Below, piece by piece: positions 38,720-63,566 of a DNA stretch of 64,000 nt. The translations under genes and the position numbers were made by a program. The stretch's first letter is position 1. Every line of letters starts with the position of its first letter. The notes beneath the pieces were generated by a model. The model saw only the letters and a list, made by a program, of their open reading frames with translations, had not been told where the DNA came from and made no database searches. This stretch comes from Liolophura sinensis. Taxonomy: Eukaryota; Mollusca; Polyplacophora; Chitonida; Chitonidae. The stretch covers positions 11,837,386-11,901,385 of the forward strand of contig NC_088306.1 in the NCBI RefSeq assembly GCF_032854445.1. The letters run 5' to 3'.

Positions 38720-38730
38720 GGCGAATGATA

Positions 38731-38994: not shown

Positions 38995-39005
38995 GGCGAA
39001 TGATA

Positions 39006-41990: not shown

Positions 41991-41994
41991 ATTT

Positions 41995-42489: not shown

Positions 42490-42615
42490 TTAAAACTAAC
42501 AAGTAAATTAAACAAAAATTATGATGGTTTACCAATAAAACTTTATGTTTTCATACAATTTCTTTCATTAACAGACTTAAAAGGTCTTAGAAAGCAACTT
42601 TTTGAGTTGCCTTTT
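42490..42615 (+). repeat. Local direct repeat, unit 2
   Basis: Diverged copy of 41860-41990. Confidence 0.6.
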
Positions 42616-42999
42616 AAAATTTTCTTCATGCACAGTCACAATGCCACCATTAAATGTTTGGGATCAGAGCCTTTTATGTTTTTCTAGATATGGCCGTGGC
42701 AGCAGTAATGCATGCCGGCCAGACGTACATGTATGTAGAATGATTTAGAGGAGAAGTAATGTTCCATCTCAGTACAAAACGAGAGCGTTTGGTACATGTC
42801 TACATGTACATACATGTGCATATGGAGGCAGTTTAATTCTGAGCTCTTTTGTAGATAAGAATTGACAAAAAGGGCAAATCAGAAAACTGCGCAAGTGGAT
42901 TGATGGTAATTATTTTAACACCATGCAATTGCATTAAATGCTAATATGACATTTAAAGTACATGTATACGTATGATAGGCAACTACATTTACTAGAATT

Positions 43000-43155
43000 G
43001 TCTGCGGACGTTATGGGTTACCAGCAACCTGTGGATGGTTGTGGGTACCCCCCCTGAACCCCCCCACTGACACCCCCCCCCATTCTCTGCTCGCTTTCCT
43101 CCCACCATTATTATGATTATGCTGATTGAGTAAGGTGTAAAACTCCAATGAAAAA
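43000..43155 (+). mobile_element. Degraded SINE-1 with C-rich expansion
   Basis: CCAGCAACCTGTGGATGGTT and TTTCCTCCCACCAT remain around several runs of C; the end of the core is badly decayed. Confidence 0.7.
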
Positions 43156-43159
43156 AAAG

Positions 43160-44322: not shown

Positions 44323-44325
<3 letters not shown>
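43160..44325. other. No gene seen
   Basis: AT-rich; a purine/pyrimidine TTTTAAAAGGC-type repetitive stretch lies at 43900-43975. Confidence 0.4.

Positions 44326-44363
<38 letters not shown>
44326..44363. repeat. (TA)n microsatellite
   Basis: Uninterrupted TA repeat. A second run lies at 44411-44432. Confidence 0.95.
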
Positions 44364-44369
<6 letters not shown>

Positions 44370-44377
44370 TCATTTTT

Positions 44378-44485
44378 AATTATAGAAAAAAAATAAATGA
44401 CTAACAAATTAATATATATATATATATATATACACAAAATGTATTAATTTGTTACTCATTTATTTATTAATTTTTTTCTAGAATT
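44378..44485. mobile_element. AT-rich palindromic element around a (TA)n core
   Basis: The left arm AATTATAGAAAAAAAATAAA...AACAAATTAAT and right arm ATTAATTTGTTACTCATTTA...TCTAGAATT are inverted copies. A (TA)n sits in the loop. Could be a decayed MITE. Confidence 0.5.
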
Positions 44486-45380
44486 AAAAAACCTCTGAAG
44501 TGCTTCTATGTTTAGTGATGATATGACAACCTTCATGTATGTGATACTGCCATTCTTGGGCTTGGCATGAAACACTGATCAGTGCCATCCCATAAATGTG
44601 TAGATGAATGTATGTTACGTATTCCTGTCTGTAATTACAGGAGTGCATATCATGAAATTATTGTTCTGTCTACAGTGGGAAAATTTTACTTTCTGTGAAT
44701 CAAGCCTACATAGTACAGTCATGCAGAGTGTCACAGTACAGTGATACAGCATCATAATGCAGTGATATACAGTGTCACAGTAGAGTGATACATTGTCACA
44801 ATACAGTCATGCAGAGTGTCACAGTGCAGTGATACAGCATCATAATGCAGTGATATACAGTGTCACAGTAGAGTGATACATTGTCACAATACAGTCATGC
44901 AGAGTGTCACAGTGCAGTGATACAGCATCATAATGCAGTGATATACAGTGTCACAGTAGAGTGATACATTGTCACAATACAGTCATGCAGAGTGTCACAG
45001 TGCAGTGATACAGTGTCATAATGCAGTGATATACAGTGTCACAGTAGAGTGATACATTGTCACAATACAGTCATGCAGAGTGTCACAGTGCAGTGATACA
45101 GTGTCATAATGCAGTGATATACAGTGTCACAGTAGAGTGATACATTGTCATAATACAGTCATGCAGAGTGTCACAGTGCAGTGATACAGTGCATAATGCA
45201 GTGATATACAGTGTCACAGTAGAGTGATACATTGTCATAATACAGTCATGCAGATACATTGATACAGGATCATAATGCAGTGATGCACAGTGTCACAATA
45301 GAGTGATACAAAGTGTCACAGTACGGTGATACATTGTCATAAAGCAGTGATGCACAGTGTCACAATACATTCATGCAGAG

Positions 45381-45651
45381 GGGCCTCTGTGGCTCAGTCG
45401 GTTAGCGCGCTAGCGCAGCGTAATGACCCAGGAGCCTCTCACCAATGCGGTCGCTGTGAGTTCAAGTCCAGCTCATGCTGGCTTCCTCTCCGGCCGTAAG
45501 TGGGAAGGTCTGCCAGCAACCTGCGGATGGTCGTGGGTTTCCCCCGGGCTTTGCCCGGTTTCCACCCACCATAATGCTGGCCGCCGTCGTATAAGCGAAA
45601 TATTCTTGAGTACGGCGTAAAACACCAATCAAAAAAAAAAAAAAGAAAAAT
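45381..45651 (+). mobile_element. Young full-length SINE-1 in the satellite
   Basis: The best-preserved SINE-1 head, core and tail. A perfect 13-bp duplication CATTCATGCAGAG flanks it (45368-45380, 45652-45664). It ends in oligo-A rather than (AAAT)n. Confidence 0.95.
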
Positions 45652-46705
45652 CATTCATGCAGAGTGTCACAGTACATTGATACAGCGTCATAATGCAGTG
45701 ATGCACAGTGTCACAATATAGTGATACAAAGTGTCACAGTACATTGATACAGCGTCATAATGCAGTGATGCACAGTGTCACAATATAGTGATACAAAGTG
45801 TCACAGTACATTGATACAGCGTCATAATGCAGTGATGCACAGTGTCACAATATAGTGATACAAAGTGTCACAGTACAGTGATACATTGTCATAAAGCAGT
45901 GATGCACCATGTCACAATTCAGTGATACAAAGTGTCACATTGCAGTGATATAGTGTCATAAAGTAGTGATGCACAGTGTCACACTGCAGTGATGCATAGG
46001 TCACAAAACTGTGATGCACAGTGTCACAGTACGGTGATGCACTGTGTCCTAATGCTGTTATGCACAGTGTCATAATCAGGTGATACACAGTGTCATAATA
46101 GAGTGATGCAGTGTCACAATGCAGTGTCACAATGCAGTGATACACAGTGTTACAGTACTGTGATGCACAGTGTCACAATACTGTGATGCACAGTGTCACA
46201 CTACTGTGATGCACAGTGTCACAATGCAGTGATGTACATTTTTCACAATACAGTGATGCACAGTGTCATAATTCAGTTATGCACAGTGTCACAATTCAGT
46301 AATGCACAGTGTCACAATATGGTGATGCTCAGTGTCACAATACAATGATGCAAAGTGTGACAATATGTTGATGCACAATGTCACAATACAGTCATGCAGA
46401 GTGTCACAGTGCAGTGATACAGTGTCATAAAGCAGTGATGCACCGTGTCACAATACAGTGATACAAAGAGTCACAGTGCAGTGATATAGCGTCATAAAGC
46501 AGTGATGCACAGTGTCACAATACTGTGATGCACAGTGTCACAGTACGGTGATGCAGAGTGTCATAATTCAATTATGCACAGTGTCATAATCAAGTGATGT
46601 ACAGTGTTGCAATGCAGTGATGCAGTGTCATAATTCAGTTATGCACAGTGTCATAATCAAGTGATGTACAGTGTTACAATACTGTGATGCACAGTGCATC
46701 AAGTG

Positions 46706-46810
46706 GTACTTGCTGCGGCTGTACACATACTAAAATTGGAATGATACTGAGAAGATTAGTATGGCCCCTGAGCAAGGATGACGCGAAAATTCGTGAAGTG
46801 TTCCGTATAT
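46706..46810 (+). pseudogene. U6 snRNA-derived sequence
   Basis: Nearly full-length U6: ACTAAAATTGGAATGATACT, GAGAAGATTAGTATGGCCCC, GCAAGGATGACGCG and AAATTCGTGAAGTGTTCC match conserved U6 blocks. Changes at usually invariant sites and the missing terminal T tract point to a retro-copy, here joined to a SINE. No flanking U6 promoter elements were sought beyond the satellite. Confidence 0.85.
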
Positions 46811-47052
46811 AACCCCGATAGCACATTTGGTAGAGCGTCTGCTTCGAGAGCGGTAGATCCAGGGTCAATCCTGGGTCGAGTCACACCTAAGAGGAAGTTG
46901 TAACTTCCTTGCTTGGGGTTCAGTATGAAGGGGATAGTGCAATGACTGGTTGACCCGTATCAGTATAATGGCTCAGGTGGGGCGGCTGAGTTACCTTCGG
47001 TAAGTCGTCTCAATGAAGCTGCTCTAGATAAAAGTGCGGTGCAACAAGGACA
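46811..47052 (+). mobile_element. SINE-2 fused to the U6 copy, 3' end truncated
   Basis: It begins directly after the U6 3' end at AACCCCGATAGCACATTTGG and matches 34089-34340, including GGTTGACCCGTATCAGTATA and GGTAAGTCGTCTCAATGAAG. The common SINE-2 tail is missing. Confidence 0.85.
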
Positions 47053-47270
47053 ATGATGCACAGTGTCACAATGCAGTGATACAGTGTCACAATATACTCA
47101 TCTATAGAATTTTCTGCAATGTCAACCTTTCCGTGTCATCATTGTGTTCACCATCATCATGAGAAGGTCTGAGAGATTATCCAGCAACACTGATAGCACA
47201 TGATTCAAGGTGCCGTCAACCTAATACCTAGAAAGTAAATTTAGCTCAGCTCCCTTTCGTACTAATTGTA

Positions 47271-47552
47271 CGGGGGTCTCCATGGCCAGGGTGGTTAGCA
47301 TGCTAGTACAGCGAAATTACTCAGGAGCCTGTCACCAATGCAGTCGCTGTGAGTTCAAGTCCAGCTCATGCTGGCTCCCTCTTCGGCTATACAGGGAAAG
47401 GTCAGGCAGCAACCTGCGAGTGGTCTTCAGTGATTCCCGGTTTCCCGCGGGTTCTGCCGTTTCCTCCCACCATAATGCTGACTGTCGTCGTATAAGTGAA
47501 ATATTATTAAATGCGGTGTAAAATACCAGTCAAATAAATCAATTAAATAAAT
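47271..47552 (+). mobile_element. SINE-1, full length with target-site duplication
   Basis: ACTAATTGTA flanks both ends (47261-47270 and 47553-47562). The core is somewhat diverged. Confidence 0.9.
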
Positions 47553-47727
47553 ACTAATTGTAAATATATGATCCCAATCACATGCATCCATAATGTATTA
47601 ATTAATGTATTTCATTGGTAAGCATGCCTTAGTCATGTGACTATTCTAGTGATGGTAATATATCATAATATATAATAGTGATGGATGCACTACATATACA
47701 GTATTCAAACTTTCGTATTTGTTTCAG

Positions 47728-47844
47728 AAGCTAGCAACATGGGAACTCACTTCTACTCTGGCATTTGGGGTCGACAGAGCGCATCACCGATCGATAAAAA
47801 ATTGAAGGTTGATCAACCAGACAGAAGTCCTGGAGAAGATGAAG
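47728..47844 (+). CDS. Repeat exon 1 (type A)
   Basis: 117 bp; tttcag acceptor, GAAG|gtgaag donor. Core THFYSGIWGRQSASPIDKK. The most diverged A-type exon and the leftmost one I can see. Confidence 0.65.
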
Positions 47845-50800
47845 GTGAAGTATGATTCTTGATGTTGTGGATTAAGTATGTTTTTGTTCCCATGCAGTTC
47901 TGTTAACTACATGTAGATGTAGTTTTCAAGAAAATTACAGCAAGACAAAGGAAGGCGACTATTGATCGTGTTTAAAGTGATGCTTCCCTTTACTTGAATG
48001 CTTAATACATCATTTGATCAAAGGCTGATTTCAGCACTTTTTGAGAGTATGGTTCTTGTATTTTTGATACATACATTTACATATGCTTTTACTAAAATTT
48101 GAAGTGTTGAAGGATTAGTGTCCAGATTTATTATTCATTCCTAATTAGCTACCCCTGTATGTGTTAGTAAAATGTACATTAGCCTGACTAATATTGCACT
48201 TAAAATCACTAGATAGTGAGGCTGGCTTTATGCATTGTTTCTGCTGACACTCTGTAGTCTCCCCCAGTTATATCATACAAGTTAACCTTTAGAGCTGTCA
48301 GAGCCGTGCTATTTAGTTCAGTGTGCAAAAAGCTGAAAGAGTGACAAAATGGTTAGCTTTTCTGTATACAGTTGCAAAAAATTGGGTGGTCAAAGAACAC
48401 TGGAGTTAAAGAACACTGCACACAGCATTCATAAAATACGTCCACATCTTACATGCATGTATGTTGTTTGCTGTTATATCCCCATAAAGACATAAGCTAT
48501 TCGAAATGCCCGTTGAATTGGTCGTTGTTGTCGAGTATAGGTATGAATTCAGAATCCATCGGGAATAGAATGATATTTAGTGTGAAGCGGACAGAGGGAA
48601 TGAATAGTAAATAAATATTAAATCTTAGGATAAACACACGAAATATAGAGTGTAGTACAAGATTAAGCTATAACTTACCAGTAGTTATTGTTAGTGCGGT
48701 TTGAAATGCCTGGACAATTTCAAGGTCTGAAAACTCAGAATCTGAAGTCTGGCCAGAGATGCCAGTGTCGTAAATTTTAACTTTAGCTTCGTCGACTATG
48801 GGTGCAGATTGGTAAGGTAGTTTATTTACTTGTGCGTAGCCAGATTCCATCACGAATATGGTATCGTTTTGATACGAATTCCCAGGTTCCTAGGCCAGTT
48901 AGACTTGGGTTGTCAATCTATCAGATCCGTTCCGCGCGGTCGGGTGGATATTGGCAAGGGCAGTAAATCTATTGTTTTTGCTGGATTAAAAGGCCTTATT
49001 ACATTTCACAGAAGCCCTCCTGGTAATATACTGTTCAAACAGGTGATAATCTTTGTAATTAGGAAAGGGAGGTAACTCTGGACACTAATCCTTTAATGGT
49101 GGAAGACCTACACCAACATGTAGGTGCCAGAACTGTATATTATTTGCAATTAGACTCCCTGTCAGATTTAGTATCATTTCACTGCGTGGCAGTTTCACGA
49201 ACAGTGTTTTATCTTCAGTAAAAAGCATCATGCACTGTTTCATGACTTTGATTGTTACCAGCACTTTGAGCTGATTTTTGCCAGTCAAATGGGTATTCAG
49301 CTATAAGTTATGCATATTTATAAATGGCTTGCAGATGCATGTTTGCAGTTTGCAAGTTGGCCAACTAGTGAGGAATGGAAAACCTGGTTTGGGTGATGGC
49401 GGGTGCGAGTGGGTTTTATGTATAAAGCGGGAGTTGTGTGGGGGATGGTTGGGTGGGGATGGTTGGGTGGGGGATGGTTGTGTGGGGATTGGTTGTGTAG
49501 GACATGGTTGGGTGGGTAATGGTTGGGCAGGTGGTGGCTGGGTGGGTGATGGTTGGGAGTTGTGGGGTTGATGGTTGGGGGGTGATGGTTGTGTGGTTGA
49601 TGGTTGTGTGGGAGTGAGTGAGGTGGAGATTGTGTGGGTGATGGGCAGGTGGGTGATAGGTGTGTGAATGATGGTTGGGTAGGTGATAGTTGGGTGTTGT
49701 GTGGGTGTGAGTGAGGTAGGGATTGTGTGGGTGATGGTTGTGGGTGTGAGTGGGTTGTGGGTTGTGTATCTTTTGAAGATATGGGATTAATCCCATTTCA
49801 TAATGACAAAATTTCTTATGTCAGTTGTTGAAGTTCCTATTAGTTTTCCTATAAATTACATTGACTCTTGATGTTATAATCTAGACAACGTCATTACCAA
49901 ATCAAAGTCACAAGGAATTGTATTGCCAAAGGCGGGTGAAAGTGTGCTTAGGATACTGACACGGCTATAAGACCTGGGTACAGAAGTGGGAAATACGTGT
50001 CTATATGGCCTGGGAGCGAGCCCTGTGGTTTAGTGGTTAGAGGCGCTTTCCTTCCCTTTGCTATGGGACACAAGGTGCAGGTTCAAACCTGGTCTTGGAT
50101 AGGGAATTTGTAGATTCCCCCATTTTCACTGCTTGTGAGACCTTGGTGACAAACTGTTAACAACATTTTGGTGACCATTTGATCAGTCATTGAAAAGTCT
50201 CGAAGACGACTTGTCTTTCATATGTATGTCACATGTAGGAATGTTCGTTTACAAAGTGCAGTTTCTTTCAATTTTTCACACTCCTGTTCTGTGAACAATT
50301 CTTCAGTATGGCTTTAAACGACAGTCATTCAATCAATCTGTCAGTCAAATGATTTGGTGTAAAAGTGATAATAAACAATTACATTACACATTTCAGACAT
50401 CTTTTGTTTCGGGGGCCTCCGTGGCTCAGTTGGTTAGCGCACTAGCGCAGCGTAATGACCCAGGAGTCTCTCACCAGTGCGGTTTCTGTGAGTTCAAGTC
50501 CAGCTCATGCTGTCTTCCTCTCCGGCCGTAAGTGGGAAGGTCTGTCAGCAACGTGCGGATGGTTGTGGGTTTCCACTCACCATAATGCTGGCCACTGTCG
50601 TATAAGTGAAATATTCTTGAGTACGGCATAAAACGCCAATCATATAAATAAATGAATCATCTTTTGTTTCAGAAGCCACCAGTGTGGGATCCAGTCCTGA
50701 TAACCCAACTGTCTCTGGGGTTGATAACTTGGAGAGATCAGACAAGAATGCGGACAAATCAGAACCCAACCAGGGAGAAATTATAAGTGGTTAGTGTCCA

Positions 50801-53800
50801 GATCAGCGATTTAATGGAATCTGAATATTAGGCTGGTCAGTGGGTTGTGAGTTTGATTCAGATTGACATCAGCACATTAGGCCATTATAACCTGTTACAG
50901 AGCTGATAATACAACAGTATGTGTAAAACAGGGGGCCTCTGTGGCTCAGTCGGTTAGCGCGCTAGCGTGAACTCTGGCCTTGTGGTAGCAAATACTCTTT
51001 TAGTTCTCTTGGAGATTCCTTCTCCATGTCCTGAGTCTTTCATTCTAGTCTTGTCATGGTGGCATCCACTATATTACTGAAAAGTTTCCATGAAATTTCA
51101 GTGGCTAAGATGGTTAGCGCGCTAGCACAGCGTAATGAGCCTGGAGCCTGGTCTGTCAACAACCTGCGGATGGTCGTGGGTTTCCCCCGGGCTCTGCCGG
51201 GTTTCCACCCACCATAATGCTGGTTGCCGTTGTATACGTGAAATACTCTTGAGTATGGCATAAAACACCACTCAAATAAATCAAATAAAAAAATGAAATT
51301 TCATATATTTATTGACAGATTTTGGTCAGAGTGATGTACATGAACTAACTGATTTTCTATTAAAGGTCACAGTTAATATTTATTTTTGCGTGCATCTCTT
51401 CTGGCCCTCTCCAATATCATGCATCAGGCTTACTGATATGTGCATGGTACAGCATATATATGCTATACATACAAGTGGGGATATTATTTTAACGTACATT
51501 TTAACCAAGGCTGTGCAGATGAGGACAACTTTTGTGACAAGTTAACTATGTGCACCTTCATGTTTACTGACTGTTTAAGGTTTTACTGCAAAGATTGGTG
51601 TTAAGGAAATTAAGCTGTGTACTGAATTAACGTTGCCATGGATACCAGATATTGTTATGTTATACTCTTTAATGGCTCATCTTGATTATTTATTTCTTAA
51701 TTTATTTATTTATTTGATTGGTGTTTTTACGCCGTACTCAAGAATATTTCACTCATACAACGGCGGCCAGCATTATGGTGTATTTTTCAATTAATCATAA
51801 GGTTTGAATAACCAGGAGCCGCTTGTACAAAGGGATGGTAAACCTAAGTTGACTGTAAATCACTAAGATCTTGATCATAGCCTTAGCCTACAATCCACAC
51901 CCTCTTTCACAAACGGATTTTAAGCTACGATATTTGTAACTTACAATCAGAAATTACAGTCAGGTCGACCCTGTTGTAAATATTTATGATCGCGCCAGAA
52001 TTAGATGCTTGGTACAAATACTTGCCTTAGGTAGACTGTTAGTAGTTTTTCAACTTGGTTTGTAACGATATGTAATGTAATTATTGTCATACATTATTAT
52101 TATGTTATTTAATGATAAATTATGTCATTCTTTGTCTGATGACAAAGATTTAATGACAAAGTGTGTTATTCGAGCTTGCATTAGGATCAAAATTTCCTAA
52201 TTTCTGGATTGACCTATCTGCTAAGTACATGAAAGGAGTTTATCCTGGCAGCTAGAATTTTAATGTATCAACAGTTTAGAATTAACTTATCCTATTTCAG
52301 AAGATGACAGCACAGGATATCGCTGGTACTCCAGTATCTGGAGCAGACAGAAAGCCACAGATAGAACAGTTAAGGCTGATCAGTCAGACACAAGTCAGGC
52401 ACAAGGTAAAGGTGAGTTTTGATTGCTCATGTTAAGCCACCCTTAAAACATTCTATTTTGTGCGCATGGCCCGAACCTGATTTAGGAAAAAAGTTTGGTT
52501 GAGAGGAAATTTTTCTGTTTTTATTGTGGCTATTAAGATATTAATACTGTCAGAAAAGTAAAAAAAAGTTCAGTCAAAATCCCAATTAAGATTTCAGAAT
52601 AGGGCCCTTCTGTGGAGTGTGTATGTATGTATGCATGCTTCGGGTTTGACATCATACTTATGACAATGAGGAACTATTACGTGCCACCAAAGTACTGCCG
52701 CCACTGAAGTTTCATGCCGAAGACACCAGACATGTCACCCCACACATTATACTGACACTGTGCCAACCGGTCATGTTACCTTGCTCTAACTTCTCACTGC
52801 TGGGGACCAAATGAGTCAGAAGCAAGAACCATTTTTAGCCTTTGGTATGACCCGGCCCGGGTTTGATCCCGGGGTCTCCCGACTTTGAAGCAGATGTTCT
52901 AACCATTAGGCCACCACAGTGGTCCCTTCTTTGAAAGGTCGGCTGGTTTATGCCCAATGAACATATTTGTATTGATGGCCTTTAATATGGAAGGTGGATA
53001 ATGATGTTATCCAGGCGTCGATAAAAATGAATGAATGAAGATTTTAGTTCAATGAGCTAAAAAACACCAAAAAAAAAAAAAACAGACAAAAAACGCTTTT
53101 TTTCATACATGTACTTGAATCTAATATAAAATTAAGTTTTACATGTGCTTCCAGAAAAAGAAATCCATTTGGTAGAATGACTGGCTCGAAAACAGGAACT
53201 GAATAAAGATGTGAATGTATGCTTTGCACTTTGGAAAGTGTTAAAACGTCTTATAGTTTGAACTATCACATGCGGTTAGCTCTTCAAGTTCACTGTAGGC
53301 TAAAATTGAAGTACATGCACGTGTACTGTATTTATTCTGGCATATTTGTTACCTCAGAATGTAAAAGCTCCGGATCAGTGCCATGGAGTATAAGCAATTC
53401 ACGTGGACAGACCTTACCATCAAGAGATGAAACTGTGGAGGATAGGCCGGCTCTTCCAGTTAGGCAGGGAGAAAGTAAAGGTAAGTCAGGGTTATTGATT
53501 AACGTTGTGCATGTCAAATGCTTCACTTACGTTTAGCTTTGGGAGAAACTTGTGACCATGAATAAAGGCACGCTTTTTCAAGAGACTGAGAGATATCTAA
53601 GCTCAACAATAACAAAACCCACGACCATCCACAGGTTGCAGGCAGACCTTCCAACATACGACCAGAGAGGAATCCAGCATGAGCTGGACTTGAACTCACA
53701 GCGACCGCATTGGTTAGAGGCTTCCAGGTCATAACGCTGCACTAGCGCGCTAACCAACTGAGCCACAGAGGTCCCTCAAATGCCATATACATGTAATAAA

Positions 53801-56800
53801 TATTTTAGAAACATGGGGACTTTTTGCTGAACACATGCACATGCGGGTAAAAATTCAGATGGTAGAAGATTTTGAAAATGGTGTCTCATGTTGTCTCAGA
53901 AACAGACAGTACAGAATATCGCTGGTACCCACGGGTGTGGAGCAGACAGAATGTACACACTGAACAAGCCACAGACAGTACCGTTAACCCTTTCCATGCC
54001 TAATTCCATATTACATAACATATAGCCCTTGCGTAATTAATTACGGCTTTTTTGATCAAATTGCTATCCTTGCTTTTGCTATGGTTTTTATAGAGTCAAG
54101 TGTATAATTTTAGCCAAGAACTGAGAGGGAATTAATTATCCTCTATTTCTCTTTTTTTGAAACACCAACAGTGCGGTACCCATTCACAGGGATGCCCATT
54201 GGGAAGGGCAAAAAGGGCACTATATGCTACGCAGATATGAATTTTCAAAAAAACAATGTATATATAGCCACAAAAATCCACAAAAAATAAAACTGATGGT
54301 GATGAAATCTCATTTATTTATGAATCCTATGAATTCCAGGGTCTATTCGGCACTAGTAATTTTTTTTAGTGTGGTACAAGCCAAAACAGGGGGCTGGGTG
54401 GAGGGCTGGGTGGGAGCCTACCCGCCCCCCTCCTGCGCCTGTTATTCCCCTGGTCACCTCGAACCGGCGGTCTGTCACGAGTAGGCCTACGTGCATGTAG
54501 CCTTGCTCTACCCCTGGGCCTTCCCCTCGCACCACCAGCCTGTGTTTCCATAACGGTATTATCGTCGGCATTGTCACCAGAACTGTTGTGAGACCCATTA
54601 TCAGTCGTGTGTTCGCCAAAACTTGTGTTGTTGTCTGCATCTGACTCGTCACTTGAGAACTGTCACCGCCCGAATGATCGTCATCAAACTGGTCTTCTAC
54701 TTCAAAATCACTTCCGTGATCACTATTTGCACTGTCATTGCTTCCTAGGCTATCTTCCGAATCATATTCGTCATCGTCCAACCAGTCACTGATAATGCTA
54801 CAAGCTTGTTCAGCGGAATATCGCTGACGTTTTCTTCCCTCACATGCGGCTTGCATGGGCTCCGCCATTTTGTTGGCCTCTCGCCTTGTAAACAAAGTCT
54901 GACCTAGTTTTACCCAACAGTCCTAGTCGGGATAAATGAAAACGACGCTAGATCGCTCTAAATTTAGGCTTTAGTTAAGGGGGAATCCCTTACAGGTCAC
55001 CAGAATAGCCTAGCCTCGTTCTCAGAAAAACTACGTCACGGAACTCCCTACCTGCATAAATCACGCGTTTACGCGTCTAACGCAAGCTGATGTGGTCTAC
55101 AGAAAACGCGTATACGTGTCAAACGCATGGAAAGGGTTAAGACTGATTTACCAACCCTAAACCAGGGAGAAATTAAAGGTGGGTTTTCATACTTTTGAGC
55201 ACTAAATGTAAATGCTGTTTTTCATATCTGATTGTCAGTTTTACTTCTAAGATTAGCTTTTACACGATTGTAGGGTTGCACTTTGGAAATACTAACCTTT
55301 CTGATATTAAGGTGAACTTTCAGATGCTTTTGTAGCACTGAAAAATTGGTTCTCCAAGTAGACCAGAACTGACATTCATGTATAATATATTTTGGTTAAT
55401 CTGTTCCTCTCTTCAGAATCTGTTAGCTCAGCATCAAGACCATGGGACAAAAACAACTCAAGTAGACAAAACTTACCAGTAACAGATACGGCAGTAGAAA
55501 GTTGTAGAGCAGAACGAAGGAATACAGAAGCTAACGGTCAGTATATCAAATGCTTTTCATTTCTCAGCTAATCACTGTGTTGTTAAACATCCAAAGAAAA
55601 ATTGCACTGTCTTTAAAATTGAAGGTGGAAAGTGTGTTAATATACTTTCACATGCAGCGAAGTAGTTTCAGATGGCAAGAAATGAAATATAGCATCTTGC
55701 ATTTTACTTTGTTCCAGAAGCTGTCAGTATGGGATCCCCCTGGTACTCCAGCATCTGGAGCAGACAGAATGTACCAGCCACAGATAGGACACTTAAGTTT
55801 GATCAACCAGGCCCAAGTGAAGGAGAAATCGGAGGTGGGTTTTGAATGTTTGTGGGTAATTAAAATAAATGCTGTTTTGTCATATCTATGTGCAGATTTT
55901 GATTACTTCATTAATTAATTGTGACTGGCTTGAATACAAGGTGCTGGCTTCCTCTCTGGCAGGAAGTGGAAAGGTCTTTCAGTAACCTGCGGATGGTCGT
56001 GGGTTTCCCCCAGGGCTCTGCCCGGTTCCCTCCTGCCTTAATGAAATATTATTGAGCATGGGGTAAAACACTAATCAAATAAATCAAACATAAAATAAAT
56101 TGAATGCAATGAACTGGAGAAAGACTTAGATGTGTTAATGGCAGTTTCAAAGTATACCCTTGAACATAATTTGAATTTTCACGTGCAACAAAAAGTATAC
56201 AAGAACTGAAATATGTGTTTATGCTGACATATTTGTTACATTCAGAATCGCTAAGCTTGGTATCAGCACCTTGGAACAAAAACAACTCAGGTGGACGGTA
56301 CTCACAAGTAATAGATAAGGCTGTGGAGGCTAGTCCAGCAATCCCAAGACAGGGGGAAAGTAAAGGTCAGTCTGGGTTAACTGGATTAATGCTTCAAGTG
56401 TTCAGGTGCTCATCTCTTCTCGGCCAGCCCAATGGAAAAATGATTCAAAGAAAAATTAACAAGATAATAATTAATAATAATTAATTAATTAATAATTAAT
56501 AAATTTGTTAATTTAAAAATTAACAAAATATTTGTTCTTGAAATATTAACTTTAAATTGATCTGAAGTATTTGCATTTAGATATTAATAATTTTTGTCTA
56601 AACTAATCAGTTTGAGATAGACGTTGATTGGGAAATAACATATTTACATGTAACTTGTATAAGTTCCATTTGTTTTGTAGCAGACACAGTCAGTGTGGGG
56701 TCCACTGAGTGTAACACAGGTGTGTTGGGCAGACAAAGCTTACAGGTGATGGAGGGAACAGCTAATGTTGGTCAACCTGGCCCAAAGCTGAGAGAACGTA

Positions 56801-59800
56801 AAGGTTAGTTTGGGTTATGAATTAATGTCATGGTCAAGTGTGATTAAGTGTTGAACACTGGCATATCGGTGTTTGTTGTGTAACGCGATACCCCTGAACC
56901 TGTTGTGTAACCCGATATCCCGTACAAAAATAACATTCTGCAGCATCGGGTTACACAACAAACACCAAGATGAAGGTGTTAAAGTCTATTCTACCCCCAA
57001 AATTGAAGGAAATGTGGCAAAAACTGTATATGACATGCTGCCATTCTATTTTACTCCCTCCATAGAGATCATGCATTTTGGACCAATCAACGGCAATCTT
57101 ATGCCATGGCAGTTGACATAGATACGCCAGTGCTGCGTAGGTATAACGTTGTGTTGTATTGTTGCGCGACGTAGAAATGTAAAAGCTTACTGTCCATGGA
57201 TTAAGACGTCATACCGCTGAGCTCAGATTGGAACATCATGGTGCCTGTTTGTGTAAAATAAAACATGTAAAAACAAAAACAATATCTATAAACTGTGCGA
57301 AATAAAACTTTTATCATGGAAGGAAATTCCGAAAATGAACAGCGGGGTAGGCTAATGTACATTTATATGCACTGAAGTGTTTTCTAGTACAGTATAGACA
57401 AGAATTGAAAACTAGTACTTTTAAGCCCGATTTTACTTGATCTAGAAACAGACAATGCAGGATATCACTGGTACCCACGGGCCTGGAGCAGACAAAATGT
57501 ACACACTGCACCAGCCACAGATAGGACTGTTAAGGTTGATCAGCCAGGCCCAAATCAGGGAGAAAGTGAAGGTGAGTTTTGATGGCTGTAGATGAGGGAG
57601 AAAGTGAAGGTGAGTTTTGTTGGCTGTGGATGAGGGAGAAAGTGAAGGTGAGTTTTGATGGCTGTGGATGAAGGAGAAAGTGAAGGTGAGTTTTGATGGC
57701 TGTGGATGAGGGAGAAAGTGAAGGTGAGCTTTGATGGTTGTGGATGAGGGAGAAAGTGAAGGTGAGCTTTGATGGCTGTGGATGAGGGAGAAAGTGAAGG
57801 TGAGTTTTGATGGCTGTGGATGAGGGAGAAAATGAAGGTGAGTTTTGATGGCTGTGGATGAGGGAGAAAGTGAAGGTGAGTTTTGTTGGCTGTGGATGAG
57901 GGAGAAAGTGAAGGTGAGTTTTGATGGCTGTGGATGAAGGAGAAAGTGAAGGTGAGTTTTGATGGCTGTGGATGAAGGAGAAAGTGAAGGTGAGTTTTGA
58001 TGGCTGTGGATGAAGGAGAAAGTGAAGGTGAGTTTTAATGGTTGTGGATGAGGGAGAAAGTGAAGGTGAGCTTTGATGGTTGTGGATGAGGGAGAAAGTG
58101 AAGGTGAGCTTTGATGGTTGTGGATGAGGGAGAAAGTGAAGGTGAGTTTTGATGGCTGTGGATGAGGGAGAAAATGAAGGTGAGTTTTGATGGCTGTGGA
58201 TGAGGGAGAAAGTGAAGATGAGTTTTGATGGTTGTGGATGAGGGAGAAAGTGAAGGTGAGTTTTGATAGTTGTGGATGAGGGAGACAGTGAAGGTGAGTT
58301 TATCACATACTTTTTTATCACTCCAGGGCAGAAATTAATGCACAGTTGAACTGCTTCAGGGATGTGACTCAACGCAACCCAATGAAGGGAGATAACCTAC
58401 TGAGCAGACACATTTGACGTCGTCTGCACAATTCAAGAATATATTTGTATCCCATGTAACCGTTGTTGTCCAGTGACAAGCATAGTATTTTGTCTGATGC
58501 TGGATAAATGAAGATATGAATGTTTGCCCATGTACAGCAGAATTAATACATGTGTATACACTGACATATTTGCTACTTTAGGACCTGTGATCTCAGGGTC
58601 CACACCATGCTATAAAACCAAGGTATCAGGTGGACAGACCTCACCACTAACAGATAGGACAGGTGAGACTGGTCAAGCTGTCCAGAGGCCAGGAGAAAGT
58701 AAAGGTCAGTCTGGGTTAATAATTGCATCACCGCTATGAATTAGGACACATTTTCTTTCCTCGGCTAATGAGGCTGGTTGTTAAATATCTGTATGTTGTT
58801 AGATATCTGAAGAAAAATATTCGAGATTTGAAGTCTTTCTTCCTCTGTGAAAAAGAAAGTTGAGATGTCAAGTTTTTCAAGTTAATTTGAAATCATGGTC
58901 AGTTTTGGATATTAATTAACTGGTAGCTCTTTGTAAAACAAAGATTGGAGCTTTGCTTTTTTGAGTGAAATATTGATTGGAAAATGACATGTACGTTTTA
59001 TTATTAGAAACTGTCAGTGTGGGGTCCTCCCAGTGTAACACACCTGTGTGGGGCAGACAGGGCCTACAGGTGATGGAGGGAACAATTAGTGTTAGTCAAA
59101 AAGACCCAAAGCTGACAGCCAGCAAATGTTAGTTTGGGGTGTGTTGGGGTGTGAGATGTGTTTTGAAGACCATGTACAGTTACATGTCTGTTTTGAGTTG
59201 ACAAGAATTGATGTATTTGAACATTTTTACATGCGATTTTTTATTCGTTTCAGAAACAGACAAGGGATATGGCTGGTACCCACGGGTCTGGAGCAGACAG
59301 AATTTACACACTGGACAAGTCACAGATAGAACAGCCAAGGATGCTCAGTTAAGCATAAGGAAGGGAGAGGTTAAAGGTGAGGTTGGATTTTTATGGATGT
59401 TGTAGAAAGTGTGTTAAGTTGATAAAGTATATTGCACAGTGAAGGTTGAATACCATATCAATATTTATGATCTATATAAATATGTTATAGGTTATCATTT
59501 CCACCTGTCATGAGAACAATATTTATGGTACTCAACCGTCACTGTGCAATATTCTGTTTCATATGTATATTTTGGGTGCCTCTATGGCTCAGTTGGTTAG
59601 GGCGCTAGCACAGTGTAATGACCCAGGAGTCTCACTAATGCGGTCGCTGTGAGTTCAAGTCCATTTCATTTTGGCTCCCTCTCCGGCCGTAAGTAGGAAG
59701 GTCTGTCAGCAACCAGCGGATGGTCGTGGGTTTCCCCCGGGCTCTGCCCGGTTTCCTCCCACCACAACGCACACCGCTGTCGTATAAGTGAAATATTCTT

Positions 59801-62800
59801 GAGTACGGCGTAAAACACCAATCAAATAAATAAATAAATATATTTTGAAAATATCATGATTTTGCCAACTTGAAAAATTTTTAGCAATGTTTGTAGACCT
59901 TCACAGTCTTGTGTGTATAGCATGATGTCATACATTGTGTCTTACTACTGGATTAAATTAATGTTGTCAGTCAAATGCTTTGCTCTTGCCAGCTGATCAG
60001 GGCAGTGTGTTGATAAAATGTACAAACATAAAAATTATATTATGTTATCTTGAAGTTGATCCTACTTAAGTTTGGATATTGAATAATTTGTGACAGATTA
60101 GAACCAGTCAGAACAAGGTGTATTTCCTATGTTTGTTGCCATTTATTTCGTAGCAGACACTGTGAGTGCGGGGTCCACTGAGTGTAACACAGGTGTGTTG
60201 GGCAGACAGAGCTTACAGGTGATAGAGGGAACAGTTAATGTTGGTCAACCAAACTCAAAGCTGAGAGAAAGCAAAGGTTAGTTTGGGTTATTTCATGTTG
60301 ACTCGTTTTGAAAACCCATTGCAGTTAGGTTTTGAGGATGACAAGAGTTGAAGTATAACACTTCTGATTTGTGTTGTATTCAGTTCCAGAAGCTGTCAGT
60401 ATAGGATCCCCCTGGTACTCCAGCATCTGGAGCAGACAGAATGTACCAGCCACAGATCGGACAAGTAAGGCAGATCAGCCAGGCCCCTGTCAGACAGAAG
60501 TTAAAGGTAGTTGTGAGAGTAATGTATGGCTGAGAATGGTTAATAATGCTCATATATTTCCGGTGACATTCTCCCAACTTCCAGGGCTTGTGGGTGGAGG
60601 AAGGCCTGATTATAGAAGGGCTGGGACTGAAAATAATTCTTGCTTTTCCTATCTGATATTTGATTTTTGCTTTATAAAATTTCCCCATTAATTGGGGAAT
60701 GCAAGGAATGGAATAAAGATATGGATGTATTATTGTCAGTTTGGAAAGTATACCCTTTAAACATAAAGTGAACTTTATATTTTGTGAAATACTTTTCTGT
60801 ACATTAATTGGCCTGTGACCATACATAACATATCTGTGACCATACATAATATATCTGTGACCATACATAATATATCTGTGACCATACATAATATATCTGT
60901 GACCATACATAATATATCTGTGACCATACATAATATATCTGTGACCATACATAATATATCTGTTGCCTCAGAATGTGTTAACTCGACATCAGCACAGTGG
61001 AACAACAATAGCTCAGGCGGACAGAACGTGAAAGAAATCGATAAAACAGTGGAGACTAGTCAAGCAGTACTGAGACAGGGAGAAAGTAAAGGTCAGCCCG
61101 GGCTAACTGGATTACATTAATGTAATAAATCAGATACTTGTCTGTTTTCAGCCAATCAGGGCAGTGTGTGGTAAAGCATTTAGTGAAGAGAAATACACAG
61201 TCTCTAAAATCTTTGGTGTTGTTAGCCAGAGAAATAAAAATTGAATTGTAAAGTTTAAGTTTCTGTTAAGGTTTAGTTATGTGTATGTAATATGAATAAT
61301 CTGTTGCACCCAGGGAAGCGTTGCCCTTTTGGGGACGTGTATAGACATCGATCGCGAATTCATACTTACATATTGCAATTTATTTTGTAGCAGACACTGT
61401 CAGTGTGGGGCCCACTGAGTGTAGCACAGGTGTGTTGGGCAGGCAGAGCTTACAGGTGATGGAGGGAACAGCTAATGTTGGTCAACCGGACACAAAGCTG
61501 AGAGAAAGCAAAGGTTGGTTCAGGTTAATATGAATGCTGTGGTGGATGCTGTGTTAATATATATTTGCCTGCGGCTTGTCAGTGCAGTTTATGCACCCTT
61601 TTTAATTTGATTTTGAAGAAAAAAACTTGGTTGGCCAACTTCCAGGCTTCACAAAAAGTATAATTGTATAAGTCTGTACAGAATAACGCCTTCAGAATTG
61701 CTTGAATAAACACCTTTATAAGCAAGCAAACATTGCACAGCTTTGCAAAAAAAGTTGAAGAATTACAGTCGCTGTTCTGTATGACCTAATTGTTGGCATT
61801 TTCATTTTCAGTTTTACCTTAAAGTTTTTATTTTTTTGCTGATTAGACAATAACATTTTATAAGAAGAGAATTAAAAGTCAAATAAGTGGGTATTTATTT
61901 TGTGTGACAACAGACATAGTGGGATACAAAGTAATTCAGGCATATTCAGTGGGTATAAGTTGCGAGAAATCTAGATAACAGATATTGTCAGTAATCTCAA
62001 CCTAAGAAAAATTAAAGGTAGAGAAATTAAAGGTACATGGTTTGATTATCCATGTTGAAAAAGGTTTGGTAAAAACATGCATGATAATAACTTTGAATAG
62101 ATCTAGTGAAACCGCTGAAGTGCAGTTCGTACATTTCCGGTAGAAGTCTTCTTCTCAGAAGGTAGCGAACAGTACAGTTCGTTTTCCGCTTGACGATCAG
62201 GAAACCAGAATGTTGGACGTAGGTTCCGAGTTTACATGAACAAGCCGGCAGTTTTAACAACTCTCACTGGCTGAGAGGCAACAATCCCCTGCCCCCAGCA
62301 TAAATTACAGGGTGGTAAAGATGGAGAATGTGATGAACTCAGCGATTTATGCCAGCTTTGTCGTTTTCAGGCTTTTCGTGTTTGGCGGGGAAAAATCGTA
62401 AAATTATGCAGGAGGCACCACCAGATAGAAAAAAATGTGCTTTTTTCATCCCAGAATGTCATTTTTTAAAGTTTTCTTTTCTTCTAAAAATAATAACAGG
62501 TGAAAAATTTTAGCATTCTTTAATTTGACTTATTCTGTTTGTAGAAGATGGCAGTACAGGATCCCACTGGTACTCCAGCATCTGGAGCAGACAAAATGTA
62601 CCCACTGTACAATCCACAGATAGAACAGTTAAGACTGATCAGTCAGGTCCAAGTCAGGCAGATGTTAAAGGTAAAGTTTTAAGAGTAATGAATAGTTAAT
62701 AATACTCATATATTTCCCGTGACATTTCCCCATTTTCCACGGCTTGTGGAGTGAGGAAGGGCTAATTGTAGAAGGGCTGGTTAGGTCCAAGTCAGGCAGA

Positions 62801-63566
62801 TGGTGGGTTTTCATAATTATATGTCATTAAAGCTTGTCATATTTCCAATCAGGTACATCCTTCATTTTTTGACCGCTTTGGTAGTCCAATGATTTGAGTG
62901 TCCGTCTCGAAGTTGAGAGACCCTGGGATCAAACCCGGGCCGGGTCATAGCAAAGACTTTAAAAATGGTAATTCCTGCTGCTTTGAGTGGCAGGAAGTTA
63001 GAGCAAGGAAACATGACTGATTGGTCCGGTGTCAGTGTAATGTGGCTGGGTGGGGCGTCATGTCTGGTGTCTTCGGCATGATACTTCAGTGGCGGCAGCA
63101 CTTAGGAGGCATGGCACAAGAGGGCACAGTATATATACACACGCCTAATGACTCCTTGTCATCATATGACTGAAAAAATGTCAAGTACGACTTTAAACCC
63201 CAAGCGTACATACATACATGTACATCCATCATTTTCTTGGCAAACAACAAGGAATTTAGTTTTCAAAGTTCAAAGGACAAGTGTAACATGTTTTAATCAC
63301 ATGCTGTTCATTTTGTTTGGATTTCTGATATTTTGTTTTATATGCATATATGGATATTTAATACAGAAGAGCATGAAAAATTCTCCAGTATGCTGTTAAG
63401 ACAACTTTCAAATAATTAAATAAAGTGGCTTTTTCCTTTGTTTTAGAATCTGGCAGTATGGGACCTACTCGGTGTAATCCAGGTATGGTGGGTGGGCAGA
63501 ATTTACAAGTGAAAGATGAAACTGTTGATAGTTGTCAACAGGGCCCAAGGCAGGAGGAAATTAAAG
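47728..63566 (+). CDS. Repeat-exon gene: at least 19 duplicated phase-1 exons, unknown protein
   Basis: Exons of 111-126 bp, almost all multiples of 3, begin with two bases (AA, CA or GA) after AG and end with one G before GT, so splice phase is 1-1 throughout. Each encodes a 37-42 residue repeat. The consensus begins E/A-x-x-S-x-G, has a central [SGV]-[RG]-[QG] core (WSRQ in type A, GGQ in B, LGRQ in C) and ends x-Q-G-E-x-K-G at the junction. The repeats are hydrophilic, rich in S, G, T, Q and D, with no signal or membrane segment; they look extended or disordered. No start or stop exon was identified, so 5' exons may lie left of 47728 and the gene probably continues past 64000. I recognise no family. 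Alternative exon use is likely because every intact exon is frame-neutral. Exons 5, 12 and one near 61914 are damaged. Confidence 0.75.
48677..48853 (-). CDS. Possible first exon or transposon-derived fragment
   Basis: An ATG opens 58-59 codons (MESGYAQVNKLPYQSAPIVD onward, then an acidic SDSEFSDLEIVQAF) up to ACTG|gtaagt on the minus strand. Codon usage looks protein-like, but no downstream exon was found, so it may be a decayed element inside the intron. Confidence 0.25.
49436..49760 (+). repeat. GATGGTTGGGTGGG minisatellite
   Basis: Variable 11-16 bp G/T-rich units. It yields a proline/histidine frame on the minus strand that is not a gene. Confidence 0.9.
50019..50335 (+). mobile_element. 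SINE-4, tRNA-headed
   Basis: The head is CCCTGTGGTTTAGTGGTTAG...GGTTCAAACCTGGTC. The 3' end has GGCTTTAAACGACAGTCATT with ATTCAATCAATC repeats. Confidence 0.6.
50411..50657 (+). mobile_element. SINE-1 inserted at the exon 2 acceptor
   Basis: The 13-bp duplication CATCTTTTGTTTC flanks it (50398-50410 and 50658-50670). The right copy is followed directly by AG and exon 2, so the insertion point was two bases before the exon boundary. The duplication restored the pyrimidine tract. Confidence 0.9.
50673..50789 (+). CDS. Repeat exon 2 (diverged, B-like)
   Basis: 117 bp; tttcag acceptor regenerated by the SINE duplication, AGTG|gttagt donor. Reads SVGSSPDNPTVSGVDNLERS and ends QGEIIS. Confidence 0.65.
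50931..50967 (+). mobile_element. SINE-1 head fragment
   Basis: GGGGGCCTCTGTGGCTCAGT and the A box only, ending after GCTAGCG. Confidence 0.8.
51101..51292 (+). mobile_element. SINE-1 with internal deletion and duplication ATGAAATTTCA
   Basis: Flanked by ATGAAATTTCA at 51090-51100 and 51293-51303. The B-box region is lost between GAGCCTGGAG and CCTGGTCTG. Confidence 0.9.
51700..51780 (-). mobile_element. SINE-1, 5'-truncated
   Basis: Tail and first part of the core only. Confidence 0.85.
52301..52411 (+). CDS. Repeat exon 3 (type A)
   Basis: 111 bp; cctatttcag acceptor, AAAG|gtgagt donor. Core RWYSSIWSRQKATDRTVKAD; the shortest member. Confidence 0.75.
52682..52918 (-). mobile_element. SINE-3, minus orientation
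   Basis: The reverse complement carries the tRNA-like head (GGTTAGAACATCTGCTTC, B box GGGATCAAACCCGGG) and the SINE-3 body. Confidence 0.8.
53358..53480 (+). CDS. Repeat exon 4 (type B)
   Basis: 123 bp; gttacctcag acceptor, AAAG|gtaagt donor. Reads SVPWSISNSRGQTLPSRDET and ends RQGESK. Confidence 0.75.
53614..53775 (-). mobile_element. SINE-1 head half, tail missing
   Basis: Minus-strand copy carrying A and B boxes and the start of the core, but no tail. Confidence 0.85.
53900..53987 (+). pseudogene. Repeat exon 5 (type A), 5' half before the piggyBac insertion
   Basis: The acceptor gtctcag and frame are intact: YRWYPRVWSRQNVHTEQATD. The TTAA of codons GTT AAG is the target of the element; reading on meets a stop (TAA) within 20 bases of the insertion. 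The 3' half is at 55137-55179. Confidence 0.8.
53988..55136 (-). mobile_element. piggyBac-type element, internally deleted, in exon 5
   Basis: 1149 bp bounded by the inverted repeat CCCTTTCCATGC and by duplicated TTAA (53984-53987, 55137-55140), the hallmark of piggyBac. The minus strand encodes only an N-terminal transposase-like part. Outside the 12-bp repeat the two ends differ. Probably non-autonomous. Confidence 0.9.
54353..54895 (-). pseudogene. piggyBac transposase N-terminal remnant
   Basis: After the start the frame reads RQRYSAEQACSIISDWLDDD, then a long Asp/Glu/Ser region (EYDSEDSLGSNDSANSD), typical of the acidic N-termini of piggyBac transposases. The catalytic DDD region is absent; after about residue 105 the frame runs into unrelated sequence and ends at 180 residues. 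Confidence 0.6.
55137..55179 (+). pseudogene. Repeat exon 5, 3' half after the piggyBac insertion
   Basis: Starts with the second TTAA, continues TDLPTLNQGEIK in the family frame and ends AAAG|gtgggt. The split point corresponds exactly to the first half. Confidence 0.8.
55417..55536 (+). CDS. Repeat exon 6 (type B)
   Basis: 120 bp; tctcttcag acceptor, AACG|gtcagt donor. Core SRPWDKNNSSRQNLPVTDTA. The end (RRNTEAN) departs from QGESK. Confidence 0.75.
55718..55834 (+). CDS. Repeat exon 7 (type A)
   Basis: 117 bp; gttccag acceptor, GGAG|gtgggt donor. Core SPWYSSIWSRQNVPATDRT, almost identical to exon 15. Confidence 0.8.
55945..56093 (+). mobile_element. SINE-1, 5'-truncated, core partly deleted
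   Basis: Begins at GGCTTCCTCTCTGGC; part of the core (ATGCTGGCCGCCGTCG) is missing before the tail. Confidence 0.85.
56246..56365 (+). CDS. Repeat exon 8 (type B)
   Basis: 120 bp; ttacattcag acceptor, AAAG|gtcagt donor. Core SAPWNKNNSGGRYSQVIDKA, ending RQGESK. Confidence 0.8.
56681..56803 (+). CDS. Repeat exon 9 (type C)
   Basis: 123 bp; ttttgtag acceptor, AAAG|gttagt donor. Core STECNTGVLGRQSLQVMEGT; closest to exons 14 and 17. Confidence 0.8.
56869..56966. mobile_element. Small inverted-repeat element in intron 9
   Basis: Arms GGTGTTTGTTGTGTAACGCG and, inverted, CGGGTTACACAACAAACACC; 98 bp. A shortened arm copy (TGTTGTGTAACCCGATA) lies inside. Confidence 0.65.
57446..57571 (+). CDS. Repeat exon 10 (type A)
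   Basis: 126 bp; tgatctag acceptor, GAAG|gtgagt donor. Core YHWYPRAWSRQNVHTAPATD, ending NQGESE. Its donor region is the seed of the minisatellite that follows. Confidence 0.75.
57553..58298 (+). repeat. 38-bp minisatellite made from the exon 10 donor
   Basis: About 19-20 units of GGAGAAAGTGAAGGTGAGTT plus TTGATGGCTGTGGATGAG, at an exact 38-bp period (for example 57591, 57629, 57667). Every unit contains the end of exon 10 and a GAAG|gtgagt-like donor. The minus-strand open frame is only a repeat by-product. Confidence 0.95.
58582..58704 (+). CDS. Repeat exon 11 (type B)
   Basis: 123 bp; gctactttag acceptor, AAAG|gtcagt donor. Core STPCYKTKVSGGQTSPLTDR; the usual Trp is Cys here. Confidence 0.75.
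59008..59126 (+). pseudogene. Repeat exon 12 (type C), frameshifted
   Basis: 119 bp instead of 120-123. SSQCNTPVWGRQGLQVMEGT is intact, but one base is missing around 59100 relative to exons 9, 14 and 17, giving an in-exon TGA. The base before the donor is T (AAAT|gttagt) where all intact members have G. Confidence 0.7.
59254..59376 (+). CDS. Repeat exon 13 (type A)
   Basis: 123 bp; ttcgtttcag acceptor, AAAG|gtgagg donor. Core GYGWYPRVWSRQNLHTGQVT, ending RKGEVK. Confidence 0.75.
59575..59838 (+). mobile_element. SINE-1, full length, duplication TATATTTTG
   Basis: Flanked by TATATTTTG at 59566-59574 and 59839-59847. It lies in the intron where a type B exon would be expected. Confidence 0.9.
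60154..60276 (+). CDS. Repeat exon 14 (type C)
   Basis: 123 bp; atttcgtag acceptor, AAAG|gttagt donor. Core STECNTGVLGRQSLQVIEGT. Confidence 0.8.
60390..60506 (+). CDS. Repeat exon 15 (type A)
   Basis: 117 bp; cagttccag acceptor, AAAG|gtagtt donor (weaker than its sisters). Core SPWYSSIWSRQNVPATDRT as in exon 7. Confidence 0.75.
60815..60960 (+). repeat. 21-bp minisatellite at the exon 16 acceptor
   Basis: Seven units of CATATCTGTGACCATACATAA/T at a 21-bp period, ending about 11 bases before exon 16. Open frames on both strands are repeat by-products. Confidence 0.95.
60972..61091 (+). CDS. Repeat exon 16 (type B)
   Basis: 120 bp; gttgcctcag acceptor, AAAG|gtcagc donor. Core SAQWNNNSSGGQNVKEIDKT, ending RQGESK. 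Confidence 0.8.
61391..61513 (+). CDS. Repeat exon 17 (type C)
   Basis: 123 bp; ttttgtag acceptor, AAAG|gttggt donor. Core PTECSTGVLGRQSLQVMEGT. Confidence 0.8.
61583..61775 (+). repeat. Unclassified ~190-bp interspersed repeat, copy 3
   Basis: Matches 40578-40760 and the reverse of 41995-42215. Confidence 0.65.
61914..62017 (+). pseudogene. Decayed repeat exon between 17 and 18
   Basis: An acceptor (acaacag), GGCATATTCAGTGGG-like core and AAAAATTAAAG|gtagag end resemble the family, but the 104-bp length breaks phase and an early TAG/TAA stop appears. A second AAAG|gt follows at 62032. Confidence 0.4.
62545..62670 (+). CDS. Repeat exon 18 (type A)
   Basis: 126 bp; gtttgtag acceptor, AAAG|gtaaag donor. 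Core SHWYSSIWSRQNVPTVQSTD. Confidence 0.8.
62872..63225 (+). mobile_element. SINE-3, full length
   Basis: tRNA-like head with B box GGGATCAAACCCGGG, the body shared with 33801-34045 and 52682-52918, and the tail CTTTAAACCCCAAGCGTAC with CATA repeats. Confidence 0.8.
63447..63566 (+). CDS. Repeat exon 19 (C/B intermediate)
   Basis: 120 bp; tgttttag acceptor, AAAG|gtaagt donor. Reads MGPTRCNPGMVGGQNLQVKD, combining the C-type Cys with the B-type GGQ. Confidence 0.75.

Follow-up and report, generated by a model that had tools for sequence, protein, structure and literature searches.

A tandem array of phase-symmetric repeat exons ahead of a double-FYVE gene in the chiton Liolophura sinensis

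Introduction

Arrays of phase-symmetric exons are a known route to adjustable repeat proteins and are found mostly in muscle, matrix and cell-surface genes. In titin, the PEVK region is encoded by many short symmetric exons specifying related, probably unfolded segments whose number can be adjusted; like Dscam, it is a system in which alternative exons are chosen. FYVE-type modules act in the cytosol. Their motifs include the basic R(R/K)HHCRxCG and RVC, and the canonical forms that bind phosphatidylinositol 3-phosphate (PI3P) carry an N-terminal WxxD. One FYVE protein, DFCP1 (ZFYVE1), has an N-terminal nucleoside triphosphatase (NTPase) region, whose activity is named in the title of one paper, and ends with its FYVE domains. 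Here we describe an array of repeat exons in the chiton Liolophura sinensis (Mollusca: Polyplacophora; genome 609 Mb) that lies ahead of a gene for a protein with two FYVE-type fingers. The array begins in a stretch of 64,000 nucleotides (C12:11837386-11901385), hereafter the window. The sequence analysed comprised 284 kb, made up of the window, 20 kb upstream and 200 kb downstream, and coordinates above 64000 continue the window numbering. We put at roughly 0.6 the probability that the array, window exons included, forms the 5' coding region of this gene, LOC135479700 (gene A).

What sets the locus apart is that the exon array stands on a FYVE-type protein, that its repeat is unmatched in the libraries searched and that a single-copy sister gene lies beside it. 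The open-licence literature on chiton FYVE proteins, mollusc exon duplication, symmetric exons and tandem FYVE domains contained, among the matches listed, no report of this gene.

Results

The repeat exons

The original prediction of a tandem array of phase-symmetric repeat exons in the window is borne out, as is the placement of the sequence in a mollusc. The interval from 47728 to 63566 contains 19 copies. Of these, 18 are intact, with an AG acceptor, a GT donor, phase 1-1, a length that is a multiple of three and no internal stop; the remaining copy (53900-55178) is split by an insertion. The count of 19 for this interval stands. The array is about three times larger than first seen and amounts to 61 copies between 47728 and 125706 (60 full-length plus the split one), so that the window holds under a third of it and its 3' end lies outside. 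The main array, that of gene A, reaches 107056, and one further copy (125581-125706) belongs to the sister gene, gene B.

Most conspicuous among the repeats is the W-type, to which 23 of the 60 full-length copies belong. All 23 carry the motif [WF]Y[SP]xx[WL][SG][RL]Q, and 20 the strict form WY[SP]xxW[SG]RQ. They make up one clade (support 98/93) in a tree that includes 58 of the 60 full-length copies and was built on a short alignment that leaves many other forks unresolved. Between one W-type exon and the next there is one other exon in 7 cases and there are two in 15, and a single pair is adjacent; none of 10000 shuffles was as regular (the split W-type copy is outside this count). The copies in the window, an adjoining minisatellite and three exons downstream of the window are listed below, with the basis in brackets.

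47728-47844, + strand: repeat exon 1, W-type, first in the array (AG/GT, phase 1-1, open)
50673-50789, + strand: repeat exon, spacer type D (repeat profile, splice sites, phase)
52301-52411, + strand: repeat exon, W-type (repeat profile, splice sites, phase)
53358-53480, + strand: repeat exon, spacer type B (repeat profile, splice sites, phase)
53900-55178, + strand: repeat exon, W-type, interrupted by the element 53988-55136 (both halves match the repeat DNA profile)
55417-55536, + strand: repeat exon, spacer type B (repeat profile, splice sites, phase)
55718-55834, + strand: repeat exon, W-type (repeat profile, splice sites, phase)
56246-56365, + strand: repeat exon, spacer type B, acceptor weak with a score of 3.2 (repeat profile, splice sites, phase)
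56681-56803, + strand: repeat exon, spacer type C (repeat profile, splice sites, phase)
57446-57571, + strand: repeat exon, W-type, donor region amplified as a 38-bp minisatellite (repeat profile, splice sites)
57557-58301, + strand: 38-bp minisatellite, 19.6 copies (tandem-repeat and donor-like motif counts)
58582-58704, + strand: repeat exon, spacer type B (repeat profile, splice sites, phase)
59008-59127, + strand: repeat exon, spacer type C, with a terminal T (repeat profile, splice sites, junction test)
59254-59376, + strand: repeat exon, W-type (repeat profile, splice sites, phase)
60154-60276, + strand: repeat exon, spacer type C (splice sites, phase)
60390-60506, + strand: repeat exon, W-type (repeat profile, splice sites, phase)
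60972-61091, + strand: repeat exon, spacer type B, opens a six-exon block duplicated across and past the window end (repeat profile, splice sites, phase, block comparison)
61391-61513, + strand: repeat exon, spacer type C (splice sites, phase)
62545-62670, + strand: repeat exon, W-type (repeat profile, splice sites, phase)
63447-63566, + strand: repeat exon, spacer type D, the final copy of the window (repeat profile, splice sites, phase)
106937-107056: last main-array repeat, adjoins the FYVE exon (ends in phase 1)
107577-107682: first FYVE exon of gene A (starts in phase 1, 0.5 kb downstream of the array)
125581-125706: single repeat exon of sister gene B

All 60 full-length copies are divisible by three in length and free of internal stops. 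AG/GT sites are present in 59, which are 84-129 nt long and in phase 1-1; the exception, 67113, has AC for AG, and a few other copies have weak splice sites (e.g. 56246, 85264, 89094 and 95606). A repeat profile applied to splice-bounded open segments kept 58, all on the plus strand; the 78 minus-strand candidates scored at most 1.8 bits. A DNA profile used without requiring an open frame gave 66 matches. Of these, 57 fell on exons already catalogued, two on the two parts of the split copy, two on the additional intact exons 64369 and 70118, and one on 78813, which is 84 nt long; the remainder were a half-copy, two short fragments and a match due to chance. The scan brought to light no other full-length copy that is broken.

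The array leads into a double-FYVE core

The last main-array repeat ends in the phase in which the first FYVE exon begins. Eight core exons follow this repeat in frame, with AG/GT sites throughout, and encode two fingers, a FYVE (its first half in 107577-107682) and a second of FYVE type, which are joined by a linker and followed by part of a conserved C-terminal region. Gene B shows the same order from 125581, with one repeat exon ahead of its core. The joining of 10 repeats to the core is supported by a database gene model: the NCBI-predicted L. sinensis protein of gene A (P0002, 759 residues) consists of the last 10 main-array repeats plus the double-FYVE core. Eight of these 10 repeat exons match our translations (all except end residues compared); the other two are 94950, which contains the start Met and agrees from there on, and 99711, which reads as if its donor lay 6 bases earlier. 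The protein of gene B (P0001, LOC135479265, 588 residues, same species) has one repeat and the sister core, and our spliced join of gene B is identical to its start over the full extent of the join. Two uncharacterised coral proteins of 574 residues, P0003 (Oculina patagonica) and P0004 (Acropora digitifera), share the double-FYVE core and C-terminal part at 30-33% identity, with about 45 residues before the first FYVE and no recognisable repeat. The phase-compatible FYVE exon, the join in P0002, the one-repeat sister and the repeat-less coral cores make the array look like an expanded N-terminal arm.

Pfam assigns two FYVE (PF01363) stretches to each of P0001-P0004, with 83.7, 79, 98.8 and 94.3 bits against a cut-off of 27.8 (expect value, E, 9.5e-24 for P0001 and 2.9e-22 for P0002). 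The first finger has eight Cys, HHCR and RVC; its basic motif reads RPHHCRRCG or KPHHCRRCG in the chiton, with Pro for the usual R/K, and RKHHCRRCG in the corals. The second finger is without HHCR in all four proteins. WxxD is absent from all four as well (WLSS, WVNA, WVES and WVEA in its place), and for this reason we class the fingers as FYVE-type by profile, not as canonical PI3P-binding FYVE domains. The cores of A and B are identical at 233 of 374 residues; the difference between non-synonymous (dN, 0.24) and synonymous divergence (dS, 1.30) indicates that the core is under selection. In the region 118.6-139 kb, gene B retains the C-terminal part that it shares with the corals and before which P0002 ends. 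Nothing near gene A matches the gene B exon at 138964, and so gene A may have lost this part.

The suggestion that the exons encode a structural, secreted or recognition protein is not supported by these data. The exons lead in phase into a double-FYVE core, and neither a signal peptide nor a first exon was found; nothing here points evidently to secretion or recognition. Ahead of its first FYVE stretch P0001 has fewer than 45 residues, and P0002 only repeats. Pfam lists no NTPase for P0001 or P0002 as far as the two genes are modelled.

Junctions and joinable subsets

When the exons are spliced, the junction codon is formed by the last base of one exon and the first two of the next. The commonest combination, G followed by AA or AG, encodes Glu: among the 59 AG/GT exons, 42 begin with AA or AG and 56 end in G. 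P0002 has the same Glu reading. The x-G-E-x-K-G junction described originally needs correction in this respect, its K-G being a read-through of one codon into the intron. Equally, the claim that any subset of exons gives an open protein fails for one exon, 59008-59127. This exon ends in T, whereas the related C-type exons compared end in G, and where the next exon starts with AA it therefore creates a TAA stop at the junction. When 58 exons were sampled as random ordered subsets and linked to the core, 847 of 2000 joins contained a stop; once 59008 was excluded, the number fell to 0 of 2000. Most subsets stay open because the exons are in phase 1-1 and because 56 of 59 have a terminal G, a base with which no stop codon starts.

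Judged from phase, alternative splicing of the repeat exons would be permitted. One could envision the array as a bank of alternative exons, one or a few of which are chosen per transcript, as in Dscam or titin PEVK, to give many arm isoforms. This would be a special form of the view that the array belongs to gene A, and the two are not exclusive. The legality of most subsets speaks for such a bank; the one database model that joins 10 repeats consecutively speaks against it, and we consider the idea rather doubtful.

Searches for relatives

That the repeat belongs to no known domain family was confirmed within the searches made. Pfam, queried with 14 concatenated repeats, returned no family above its cut-off (best, Thaumatin, 13 bits versus 27.4), and no convincing PDB relative was found (one chain at E 0.98). 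A protein search with the repeats (a 1382-residue query against 7999 candidates of about 760-2418 residues) gave nothing at E of 10 or below, its length limits just missing the 759 residues of P0002. With a 759-residue mixed alignment of repeat and core, only P0001 and P0002 were found among the 7999 candidates scored, of 417-1328 residues; repeat columns stood in one of its four rows, and mainly the core was tested. Both protein searches need shared five-residue words and could miss distant relatives. No match to a transposon protein emerged, and a predicted protein does join 10 repeats, so that neither of the observations named as refuting the original prediction was made.

In the whole genome, matches at E of 0.001 or below numbered at least 17 for the W-type, at least 10 for the C-type and at least 21 for P0001, all at this locus; protein and DNA matches of the repeat lie here only and on one strand. 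A transposon or dispersed repeat was rejected on the ground that the matches are so confined. The more general idea that the apparent exons are a non-coding repeat family, derived from a transposon or otherwise, might appeal to the wealth of minisatellites in the region and to the copy that holds a TTAA-flanked insertion. Splice sites, phase and open frames are kept, however, and a predicted protein uses 10 of the copies, which, with the single locus and strand, makes this explanation highly improbable.

Position and a loose likeness had hinted that the repeat descends from the coral N-terminus, but this was not supported. Even with E allowed up to 100, neither of the coral proteins is listed by the repeat profile. 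When the coral N-termini were shuffled, they scored equally well or better in 21 and 92 of 200 trials if the best of all exons was taken, and in 54 and 335 of 500 against 125581.

Damaged copies and duplication history

Three of the 61 copies are damaged. In the split copy, the 1.15-kb insertion (53988-55136) has TTAA on each side and ends in a 16-nt perfect inverted repeat that includes the TTAA. Its longest open reading frame (ORF) has no Pfam match; we take the element to be piggyBac-like from its TTAA and terminal repeats only. Exon 59008 has the terminal T described above. Exon 67113 has lost its acceptor AG, which its near-copy 60972 retains.

The minisatellite at 57557-58301 consists of amplified copies of the 3' end of exon 57446 with its splice donor. 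The donor-like sequence AAGGTGAG occurs 19 times in 57540-58320, and the frame of the exon meets a stop soon past the first donor. Past the window, several large minisatellites lie in introns of the array (64.8-66.3, 70.6-72.8, 79.7-80.6, 82.4-83.2 and 95.7-97.8 kb).

The six-exon block at 60.7-66 kb recurs at 66.8-73 kb with about 90-97% identity. A second block copying is suggested by the pairing, in the tree, of 88527 with 94950 (97/78), 89094 with 95606 (88/89) and 91790 with 99004 (100/97). Several upstream copies are on long branches, and the upstream copies are thus not all recent. It seems probable that an exon ahead of the first FYVE exon gave rise to the array by repeated duplication, partly as multi-exon blocks. 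Evidence on the direction of growth falls on both sides: the FYVE-adjacent exon 106937 is the first branch among W-types, and it is the best pairwise match of the gene B repeat (tied with 77321). The array may have grown from this end; the placement of the gene B repeat, given below, does not favor it.

Does the whole array belong to gene A?

Several observations weigh against the view that the entire array belongs to gene A and that its product sits on PI3P-rich membranes. The NCBI model begins in exon 94950 and omits every window exon. No first exon or signal peptide was found for gene A, with one poor first-exon candidate in 36000-47700, and a comparison of the regions before gene B and before the array yielded nothing convincing as a shared first exon (best E 0.007). 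The searches over about 760-2418 and 417-1328 residues found no other protein carrying the array. All three damaged copies (53900, 59008 and 67113) lie upstream of the 10 used in the model. In the tree, the repeat of gene B groups weakly with 74753 (84/75), not with 106937, which is why growth from the FYVE-proximal end is not favored. The fingers are variants, as judged from their motifs (no WxxD, the second without HHCR), and hence PI3P binding is uncertain.

Amino-acid constraint on the repeats is weak, too. The mean dN/dS ratio, estimated from 57 of the 60 exons and 1512 of 1596 pairs (the rest being outside the bins or saturated), was 1.18, 0.88, 0.94 and 0.79 in bins of rising pS (proportion of synonymous differences) up to 0.55; it was 0.47 above this value, where dS nears saturation. 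In the recent block, pN (the non-synonymous counterpart) was 0.027 and pS 0.064, compared with 0.038 in introns (four of five, the minisatellite intron omitted); non-synonymous and synonymous sites did not differ significantly from introns (p 0.25 and 0.13). With ratios near neutral and these differences not significant, purifying selection on the repeats is not shown.

From such findings one might argue that only the FYVE-proximal part, about 10 repeats, works, the window exons being surplus copies with little or no expression and in decay. The start of the NCBI model at 94950, the failure to find a protein with the upstream exons, the position of the damaged copies and the near-neutral dN/dS without significant constraint in the recent block would all agree with this. 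Yet 57 of the 58 main-array exons with AG/GT sites can be linked to the core in an open frame. Several upstream copies are not recent, to judge by their long branches, and still no full-length copy has an internal stop or frameshift. Moreover, if differences from the type consensus were random, 13.7 of the 23 W-type exons and 2.1 of the 10 C-type exons would be expected to carry an internal stop; none does in either group. (The simulation covered these 33 of the 60 copies and substitutions only; the stop of C-type 59008 lies at the junction.) On balance we find it unlikely that the window exons are surplus. Either open frames are kept while the sequence drifts, as happens in disordered repeats, or the copies are recent or in decay; the data are compatible with each of these.

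Other features of the window

A U6 spliceosomal RNA gene (46706-46812, 87.7 bits) lies about 1 kb upstream of the array and is adjoined by a minisatellite with 23/44-bp periods. Further upstream is a tandem duplication of about 12 kb (6564-18617 and 18616-30708, 96-99% identity), in which two minus-strand ORFs have no Pfam match.

Discussion

If the array is the 5' part of gene A, the protein would have an unusual shape. Joined together, 57 repeats (59008 omitted) give an arm of 2234 residues with a grand average of hydropathy of -0.94, 73% S/T/Q/G/P/E/N/K/D/R and 48 Trp; with the core exons used, the total is 2609 residues. Such a composition suggests a hydrophilic, probably disordered and multivalent arm with regularly spaced aromatic motifs. 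The FYVE core would hold the protein on PI3P-rich endosomal membranes, a role in which membrane binding appears plausible for the first finger and doubtful for the second. The arm would then gather a partner through its recurrent W-Y-[S/P]-x-x-W-x-R-Q-like motif, present in every second or third exon, and valency would be set by the number of repeat exons included. The partner-binding role is a guess, and inclusion of the window exons, the membrane target and variable splicing are likewise what we infer from the exons and the core. It is tempting to speculate that a new Trp/Tyr repeat, to date chiton-only and multiplied one exon at a time to about 60 copies, makes an ancient double-FYVE membrane protein a scaffold of about 2600 residues whose motif number is set by splicing, with a graded series of such scaffolds on the membrane, unlikely as this full picture is at present. 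If it were true, one gene could tune the valency of a membrane-bound protein by splicing. The A/B pair also lends itself to the study of how exon arrays expand.

The described systems resemble the locus in different parts. WDFY3, RUFY1, EEA1 and HRS, among the nearest PDB chains, match the first chiton finger at E 5e-13 to 1.7e-7; no chain was matched at E of 0.001 or below when the second FYVE exon was used by itself. The matches span the FYVE only, and the chiton protein differs in its first Cys pair, C-x4-C, and in having no WxxD; its repeat arm and C-terminal part are without counterpart in them. DFCP1 is brought to mind by the two tandem FYVE-type fingers. Compared by general description rather than by sequence, the chiton protein has a repeat arm before the fingers and a conserved part after them. 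An analogy in gene structure is that with titin PEVK, whose trait of short symmetric exons is seen here in 60 of 60 lengths divisible by three and 59 of 60 copies with AG/GT sites in phase 1-1. The core protein and the motif are different ones, and the likeness is one of exon design.

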